A stretch of 64,000 nucleotides of DNA. It comes from Candidatus Poribacteria bacterium. Lineage in GTDB: Bacteria > Poribacteria > WGA-4E > GCA-2687025. This document shows, piece after piece, positions 62,055 through 64,000 of this stretch (the stretch's first letter is position 1; the number at the start of each line of letters is the position of its first letter). The stretch lies in assembly GCA_018644665.1 (NCBI GenBank), contig JABGQA010000065.1, positions 1-64,000 on the forward strand. Reading direction: 5' to 3'. The translations under genes and the position numbers were made by a program. The notes beneath the pieces were generated by a model. The model saw only the letters and a list, made by a program, of their open reading frames with translations, was not told the origin of the DNA and did not search any database.

Positions 62055-63335
62055 ATGCGTTGGAGACTCACTAGCGAGACGCGACGCGCATTGCTGCGGC
62101 GGGCCGCCGGGTTCGTGTGCGTCGTGTGCCTGGCCGCATCCGCAGGCCCAGCAGTCGGCGCTACAGGCGGTACGACTGGAACCACAGACTCCATCCAAAT
62201 CGTGACAACTGAAGAGGAATTCCGCCAGGCCGTGGACGCGGCGGGCCCGAGCACGACCATACTTGTCGCGGCCGGCGAGTACCCCGGGAGCATGCGTTTT
62301 TCCAACGTCCAGGGGGCGGAGGGCGCGCCGATCGTCGTCGCTGCGGCGGACCCGGACAACCCGCCGGTGTTCCGATCCATCCAACTCTCTGACGCGGCGT
62401 ACTTGGAACTGCGTAATCTAACCTTCCGCGGATCGCCCACGAACGGGCTGAATATCGACGACGGCGGCTCCTACGACACGCCGTCGCACCACGTCGTCCT
62501 GCACGGCCTCACCGTCACGGATGTCGGGCCGGACGGAAATCGCGATGGCATCAAGCTGTCAGGCCTGGACGACTTCCGGGTGGAGGAGTGCCACCTCGAA
62601 CGTTGGGGCAGCGGCGGCTCGGGAGTCGACATGGTCGGCTGCCATCGGGGGCTGATCGTCGACAACGTGTTCCGCTACTCGAACGACGTCTCCGCGAACG
62701 CCGTACAGATGAAGGGCGGGACGTCGGACATTACCGTCCGCGGGAACCGGTTCGACCATCCGGGCTCGCGCGCGGTGAACGTCGGCGGCAGCACGGGATT
62801 CCCGTATTTCAGGCCTCCTGTCGCCATCGACGGGAGCGAGCCGGTGAACGCGGAGGCGCGGGACATCGTGGTCGAGGGGAACGAGTTCATCGGCGGCATG
62901 TCCCCCATCGCCTTCGTCGGCGTGGACGGCGCGATCGTGCGCTACAACACCATCTACCGGCCCGGGCGATGGGCGCTGCGCATCTTGCAGGAGACGCATC
63001 ACGAGACGTTCGTGCCGTCACGGGGCGGCGCGTTCACGGACAACCTCATCGTATTCCGTTCCGACGAGTGGGCGTCGGGCGGGGTGAACATCGGCCCGAA
63101 CACGGACCCCACGACGTTCTTGTTCGCCCGGAATTGGTGGCACTGCATGGACGACCCCGGCGCGAGTCGGCCGACCCTCCCCACGGACGAAGTCGACGGC
63201 GTGTACGGCCGCGATCCCATGCTCGCAGACCCCGACGCTGGGGATCTCCGCCCGGCAGAGGGCAGCCCCGCGAGTCGTGTCGGCGCGACGGCGCTCCCGG
63301 CGGCACTCCCGGCGGCACTCCCGGCGGCACAATGA
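62055..63335 (+). CDS. Secreted right-handed parallel beta-helix protein
   Basis: The ATG at 62055 (426 aa) is preferred; the track start at 62004 only adds a short tail. A signal peptide (residues about 13-35) precedes stacked Asn/Asp-rich coils such as NGLNIDDGG, HHVVLHGLTVTDVG and DITVRGNRFDHPG. These are typical of pectate-lyase-like or carbohydrate-binding beta-helices. No conserved lyase active site could be assigned. The C-terminus ends in four repeats of ALPA from a 12-bp tandem repeat, so its length may vary between strains. It is divergent from the GH74-like gene. Confidence 0.82.
   Translation: MRWRLTSETRRALLRRAAGFVCVVCLAASAGPAVGATGGTTGTTDSIQIVTTEEEFRQAVDAAGPSTTILVAAGEYPGSMRFSNVQGAEGAPIVVAAADPDNPPVFRSIQLSDAAYLELRNLTFRGSPTNGLNIDDGGSYDTPSHHVVLHGLTVTDVGPDGNRDGIKLSGLDDFRVEECHLERWGSGGSGVDMVGCHRGLIVDNVFRYSNDVSANAVQMKGGTSDITVRGNRFDHPGSRAVNVGGSTGFPYFRPPVAIDGSEPVNAEARDIVVEGNEFIGGMSPIAFVGVDGAIVRYNTIYRPGRWALRILQETHHETFVPSRGGAFTDNLIVFRSDEWASGGVNIGPNTDPTTFLFARNWWHCMDDPGASRPTLPTDEVDGVYGRDPMLADPDAGDLRPAEGSPASRVGATALPAALPAALPAAQ
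63291..63326 (+). repeat. Short tandem repeat at the end of the beta-helix gene
   Basis: Three units of 12 bp (GCGCTCCCGGCG, then GCACTCCCGGCG twice) plus a partial fourth encode repeated ALPA residues. In-frame, so it changes only the length of the tail. Confidence 0.8.
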
Positions 63336-63353
63336 CGACGAGGATCGCGCCCC

Positions 63354-63719
63354 GTGGATAACGGCGCCGTGGTGAACATCGGACCTCGTGAGCGAAGGCG
63401 TCGGCTGACGATGGGCATCGTCACGCTCGTCATCGGCGCTTTTCTCGGACTCGCCATGGTGCTGTACGGTCTGGACCGCTGGTGGCGCCTCGGTCTCTTC
63501 GTCCCGTTCTGGCTGGGCAGTCTTGGCGTGCATCAGGCTCGCGAGAAGACCTGAGTGGTCCTCGCTGCGCGAGGTTCGCGCAACCCAGACACCGGCGTCG
63601 AACCGGTCGACGATCCCGACGAACAGCGGACGCTGCGTCGCCAGGCGCGGCTCGTGTATATCCAGACCACGGCAGCTTCGCTGATACCTACCGCGCTGGG
63701 TTTGGTTATCCCCGCTTAA
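63354..63719 (+). CDS. Small two-domain membrane protein with an in-frame UGA (possible selenoprotein)
   Basis: Conventional reading stops at TGA 63552-63554 after 66 residues (ending QAREKT). The same frame then continues for 54 sense codons to TAA 63717-63719, and its translation is protein-like (VVLAARGSRN, then RRQARLVYIQTTAASLIP). The N-terminal part has NIGPRERRRR and two membrane helices (about 20-40 and 45-58). I recall relatives with REKTC at this position, so the UGA falls on a Cys codon. A hairpin with a GGU loop follows 18 nt later (63566-63582). Either selenocysteine is inserted, giving 121 aa, or the gene carries a nonsense mutation. The GTG start at 63354 is weakly supported. 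Confidence 0.6.
63566..63582 (+). promoter_or_regulatory. SECIS-like hairpin downstream of the in-frame UGA
   Basis: TGCGCGA-GGT-TCGCGCA is a perfect 7-bp stem with loop GGU. The loop begins 18 nt after the UGA. Bacterial SECIS elements need a small apical loop with G in its first two positions, 16-37 nt from the UGA, and SelB contacts a GU in the loop. All three hold. A competing hairpin CCTCGC-TGC-GCGAGG (63560-63574) is also possible, which lowers certainty. Confidence 0.45.
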
Positions 63720-63746
63720 GGCTCCGGGCGTACGAAAGGATGCGAT

Positions 63747-64000
63747 GTGATCATCGAGTGGAACGCGCATATGTTCAGTTCGGACACGTCACGGTACCCG
63801 TTCCACCCGCGGGCGGCGTACACGCCGGACGCGTCGCGGTTCGAGGCCGACCCCCTGGCCGCCTACGTGGAGCGGATGGAGGCGTTCGGGATCGACCGCG
63901 CGGTCCTCGTGCACCCGGAGCCGTATGGCGACGATCACCGGTTGGTCCTGGACTGCCTCGAGCGCGAACCCGACCGTTTGCTGGGGACGAGTCTGTTCTA
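63747..64000 (+). CDS. Amidohydrolase family 2 protein, truncated by the window end
   Basis: It is not in the ORF track because it is open at the edge. A GTG at 63747 follows AAAGGA by six bases and gives VIIEWNAHMFSSD...RYPFHPRAAY, then AYVERMEAFGIDRAVLVHPEPYGDDH. This is the opening of the amidohydrolase_2 TIM barrel: the first metal-site segment (here NAHMF), then AVLVHPEPYG where family members carry a conserved strand. At least 84 residues lie in the window. Such enzymes hydrolyse or decarboxylate small cyclic carboxylates; the substrate is unknown. An ATG at 63745 is followed by a stop and is not used. Confidence 0.8.
   Translation, partial: MIIEWNAHMFSSDTSRYPFHPRAAYTPDASRFEADPLAAYVERMEAFGIDRAVLVHPEPYGDDHRLVLDCLEREPDRLLGTSLF

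Follow-up and report, generated by a model that had tools for sequence, protein, structure and literature searches.

A candidate selenoprotein gene with an in-frame UGA codon and a conserved downstream hairpin in Poribacteria and Bacillota

Positions 63354-63719 of the window, i.e., the whole stretch of 64,000 nucleotides of Candidatus Poribacteria DNA which was analysed, very probably encode a selenoprotein of 121 residues, in which UGA at codon 67 would be translated as selenocysteine (Sec) under the direction of a hairpin; Sec insertion itself we infer from sequence data. The UGA is almost certainly a Sec codon, because UGA and hairpin are shared by distant bacteria, and because Cys occupies the site in other members and genes for making Sec were found in every genome with a UGA form. 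The initial annotation had proposed a selenoprotein from the in-frame UGA and the hairpin behind it; this reading is supported by the shared UGA, the Cys relatives, the covarying hairpin, purifying selection and the presence of Sec genes.

The features of the gene are given in Table 1. The UGA lies within an open coding region, as in bacterial selenoproteins generally, and the 54 sense codons which had been counted between TGA and TAA were confirmed in the sequence. TAA or TAG is the final stop in all six UGA genes known to us from this work. An antisense open reading frame of 250 codons (63018-63770, minus strand) overlaps the candidate gene.

Table 1. Positions of the candidate selenoprotein gene and its predicted features in the window.
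Feature	Position	Strand	Remarks
Possible Shine-Dalgarno sequence AGGA	63342..63345	+	8 nt 5' of GTG
Candidate selenoprotein gene, 121 aa	63354..63719	+	GTG start at 63354, Sec at residue 67, TAA stop at 63717-63719
Predicted membrane helix 1, residues 11-38	63384..63467	+	AF2 model, hydropathy
Predicted membrane helix 2, residues 42-64	63477..63545	+	AF2 model; hydropathy weak in window protein
In-frame UGA, codon 67	63552..63554	+	Inferred selenocysteine; Cys in relatives
bSECIS-like hairpin, 6-bp stem GCGCGA/UCGCGC, loop GGU	63567..63581	+	UGA-to-loop 18 nt
Predicted helix 3, residues 88-118	63615..63707	+	Begins with conserved RRQAR..V; AF2 model, alignment

A TGA at the identical codon was present in five other genomes from two phyla, namely one Poribacteria MAG, three Thermoactinomycetales and one further member of the Bacillota; the TGA is thus neither a lone sequencing error nor a lone nonsense mutation, a possibility the initial annotation had raised. 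The gene of the Poribacteria MAG, ARS61, is 86% identical at the amino acid level, shares the position of the TGA and ends in TAG; a search of the phylum detected the gene in 2 of 85 genomes. A relative of 129 residues from Melghirimyces thermohalophilus, QAREKTCVFLAARG, has Cys at the site (REKTCV). A profile search of the order to which Melghirimyces belongs yielded three new genomes (G493, G494, G495), all three with TGA at the equivalent of codon 67. When 399 Bacillota and afterwards one class were searched, a TGA form (G529, RRRT-UGA-V) and a Cys form (G417, RRRTCV) were obtained. A search of plasmids gave no relatives except one distant gene from Halarchaeum, whose product has Cys at the site and could be aligned along its length; the tblastn match was weak (E about 1), and profile comparison supports the relationship. 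This gene, from a plasmid of Halarchaeum sp. CBA1220 (L030:2968-3351), encodes the N-terminus CNIG..ERRRRY and lies between genes for a PKD-domain protein and an ABC transporter. No relatives were found by a search of viral contigs and phages. Altogether six UGA forms, two clear Cys forms and one distant Cys form are available, and the statement of the initial annotation that relatives have Cys after REKT proved to be correct. The tree, which is poorly resolved, requires three changes between Sec and Cys, two of them forced by well-supported branches; one exchange separates Melghirimyces from G495/G494, another separates G417 from G529, and the third concerns the distant Halarchaeum protein, so that a Sec/Cys exchange is found within both groups of Bacillota.

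For bacterial SECIS elements (bSECIS), limits have been given of a loop of 3-9 nt, a stem of 4-16 bp, a G in loop position 1 or 2, a distance of 16-37 nt from the UGA and an energy of at most -7.5 kcal/mol (PMC13188914). The window hairpin lies within all of these (GGU loop, 6 bp, 18 nt, -9.6 kcal/mol), and its positions as reported earlier, with a start 12 nt and a loop 18 nt past the UGA, were verified. The isolated window RNA (48 nt) folds best into a competing hairpin which includes the UGA (-15.5 kcal/mol); the conserved hairpin becomes the best fold (-10.7 kcal/mol) once the first 9 nt past the UGA are omitted, which would roughly mimic a ribosome paused there. Comparable hairpins, counted as stems of at least six Watson-Crick pairs obeying the loop and spacing rules, follow 47 of the 1362 TGA triplets in the window (3.5%), and the case from a single genome is therefore weak. 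For 138 TGAs of the window the frame was open over at least 60 codons on the 5' side and at least 50 on the 3' side, and six of these 138 also had a comparable hairpin. The case is carried by conservation, not by the single sequence.

Across the six UGA sequences, which represent about three lineages, 97.2% of the cells of the six-pair stem were paired, and three of the six pairs (18-28, 20-26, 21-25) were altered on both sides; the covariation score was equalled by 4 of 500 shuffles. At pair 20-26 both base changes are non-synonymous, replacing Arg by Gln and Ser by Leu, and pairing was therefore kept across changes in the protein. RNAalifold recovered the same stem in the UGA genes; this stem is short, the top pair is lost in the hairpin of G493, and the loop of G529 is GGC, as opposed to GGU. 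In the Cys genes the stem contained mismatches and had little stability at that place (-3.3 kcal/mol for Melghirimyces, -3.1 kcal/mol for Halarchaeum); G417 retains three of the six stem pairs.

The sequence past the TGA was compared within two pairs of genes. Values for the window and ARS61 were dN 0.13, dS 0.43 and dN/dS 0.30, and for G495 and G494 dN 0.26, dS 1.22 and dN/dS 0.21; shifted frames gave ratios above 1 for the window and ARS61. Changes were in excess at third codon positions (p=0.013 and 0.0013). Judging from these alignments, purifying selection acts past the TGA, with dN/dS of 0.2-0.3.

The sel genes, whose absence from the genome had been named beforehand as grounds for rejection, were sought in the assembly to which the window belongs (7.47 Mb, 175 contigs), and selA, selB, selD and tRNA-Sec were all detected. 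The selB gene (G000:C144:64970-66859, 343 bits) adjoins selA (564 bits) on the same strand, the pair spanning G000:C144:64970-68268; the tRNA-Sec gene (74 bits, anticodon UCA) is on the same contig, about 34 kb from selA/selB. The selD gene (346 bits, L023:1501-2421, equivalent to G000:C129:63230-64150) is itself a Sec form, with an in-frame TGA at the known catalytic Sec site, reading GUASK. In addition, selA was detected in Melghirimyces as well as in each of the six UGA genomes, and tRNA-Sec in every one of these that was probed for it, among them five UGA genomes, namely that of the window and the four others besides G529. The Cys-form genome G417 (L029, L041) has a tRNA-Sec (UCA), and a search of its assembly for selA gave no match; either the assembly is incomplete or the use of Sec is being lost.

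AlphaFold models of the window protein (pLDDT 81) and the G495 protein (pLDDT 85), which were based on shallow alignments and showed some spread between models, both consist of three long helices, with Sec just ahead of a short helix following helix 2. The hydropathy peak of helix 2 exceeds 1.4 in the Bacillota homologues. Residues invariant in eight proteins include N8, I9, W43, A62, R63, T66, U/C67, V68, A71, A72, G74, Q97, A98 and V101. Positive charges are located ahead of helix 1 (RERRRR) and around the Sec loop (AREKT and RRQAR), and suggest that the N-terminus and the Sec loop are cytosolic. The Poribacteria proteins are devoid of Cys; any resolving thiol for the window protein would therefore have to come from elsewhere. 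The Thermoactinomycetales proteins possess Cys5 or Cys6, and those of G529 and G417 one Cys nine residues past U/C. Sequence searches of the PDB gave nothing significant, and a fold search of the PDB with Foldseek gave no match at E <= 0.001. A thioredoxin (Trx)-like fold was not found: the models are helical with three transmembrane segments, and TUVVL contains neither CxxU nor UxxC.

The neighbours of the gene are a beta-helix protein and an amidohydrolase in Poribacteria. In the Thermoactinomycetales (L031, L032, L033, L009) a conserved gene, YERFQVEDVLTFI.., of about 270-470 aa, invariably comes next downstream, and two copies of it gave no match in a Pfam scan. Since neighbours are not conserved between the phyla, they provide no functional pointer, and neither the neighbouring genes nor known folds point to a reaction.

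No model of Pfam or NCBIfam fits the window protein, its best matches being far below the curated cut-offs, and no credible family was found in PHROGs. A 2026 catalogue lists 119 bacterial selenoprotein families or subfamilies in its Table 1 (PMC13188914), none of which was recognisable as this protein by name, domain or motif. The family is thus probably uncatalogued, with reference to that table, from which GOS_A is absent; the same paper also cites candidates of Deng et al. A new selenoprotein family, one of the two possibilities suggested earlier, is the best reading. In-frame UGA, Cys homologues, a hairpin within the bSECIS limits and SelA, SelB, SelD and tRNA-Sec are common to this case and to bSECIS-decoded bacterial selenoproteins; the listed families differ in that none could be recognised as a three-helix protein with the motif [RK]T-U-V..AA.G. 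Sec likewise occurs in integral membrane or transport proteins such as the putative mercuric transport protein (PF02411), YeeE/YedE (PF04143) and SaoP, a likeness drawn partly from general knowledge, but their Pfam and NCBIfam models do not match the window protein. The catalogue gives the motifs C/SxxU for the PF02411 protein and GUxSG for YeeE/YedE (PMC13188914). In contrast, the window protein has a lone Sec in TUV. By description, the predicted product resembles the eukaryotic selenoproteins K and S, which are likewise small and membrane-bound and have a single cytosol-facing Sec; unlike it, these are single-pass, with Sec near the C-terminus. Another likeness, again by description, is with GOS_A, a hypothetical protein and uncharacterised marine selenoprotein candidate without a conserved domain (PMC2398784). 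No reports of selenoproteins were found in the literature for Poribacteria, for Thermoactinomyces or Thermoactinomycetaceae, or for several genera of the latter.

Several other explanations of the UGA have to be weighed. The gene could encode an ordinary protein of 66 residues ending at the UGA, the downstream frame and the hairpin being products of chance in GC-rich DNA; such hairpins and open frames are indeed common by chance in the window, but the QA..V motif and the third helix are conserved across two phyla under purifying selection, and the Cys relatives continue straight past the site, which makes a chance arrangement highly improbable. Since a single base separates TGC or TGT from TGA, a Cys gene with a recent nonsense mutation or sequencing error might look similar; with the same TGA codon in six genomes of separate assemblies and two phyla, and a hairpin that covaries, the probability of this is negligible. 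The open frame beyond the UGA would also be expected if UGA were translated as another residue, either because the codon means Trp or Gly throughout the genome or by plain read-through, without selenium. However, the neighbouring beta-helix gene terminates at TGA, the residue in the relatives is Cys and neither Trp nor Gly, and the genome has a full Sec system, including a SelD whose known Sec site is encoded by TGA; we regard such decoding as very unlikely. That the antisense frame is the real gene and the source of the sequence constraint would agree with its being open in both Poribacteria (window and ARS61), but stops interrupt it in Melghirimyces, G529 and the three UGA genes of Thermoactinomycetales, and it is the third positions of the plus-strand frame that carry the substitutions; this explanation is extremely improbable.

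Under the preferred reading, Sec insertion at the UGA, a ribosome arriving at codon 67 would encounter the downstream hairpin bound by SelB with selenocysteyl-tRNA(Sec), which SelA would make using selenophosphate from SelD; Sec would be inserted and translation would proceed through the hairpin as far as the TAA. The predicted product would span the inner membrane with three helices, both its N-terminus and its Sec loop lying on the cytosolic side. Placed between the end of helix 2 and the short helix, its lone Sec would most likely serve as a nucleophilic selenol for redox chemistry at the membrane surface, perhaps the reduction of peroxides or disulfides, or the handling of persulfide or selenide. 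A redox role of a membrane-bound selenol is probable by analogy with the general pattern of Sec/Cys pairs; confidence in this chemical role is far lower than that in the decoding. A genuine selenoprotein in which Sec is structural or binds metal, e.g., for handling selenium or metals at the membrane, instead of being a redox catalyst, would be consistent with the lack of a second Cys in the Poribacteria proteins, with partner Cys positions that vary among subgroups and with the lack of a Trx-like fold; but Sec in place of Cys at a single conserved position is usually redox-active (general knowledge; PMC13188914), and we consider this alternative rather unlikely. For the complete redox proposal, i.e., an unreported family with a fold unlike solved structures, a lone cytosol-facing Sec, no partner Cys in Poribacteria and redox chemistry at the membrane surface, we would estimate the chances as about even.

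The gene seems to represent an additional selenoprotein family in the Poribacteria and Thermoactinomycetales, and standard gene calling would cut it short at the UGA. Its small product, predicted to lie in the membrane and to lack a Trx fold, may show Sec chemistry outside the redoxin scaffold. The swaps between Cys and Sec within one order, with Sec machinery kept in a species with the Cys form, offer a natural experiment on the retention and loss of Sec.
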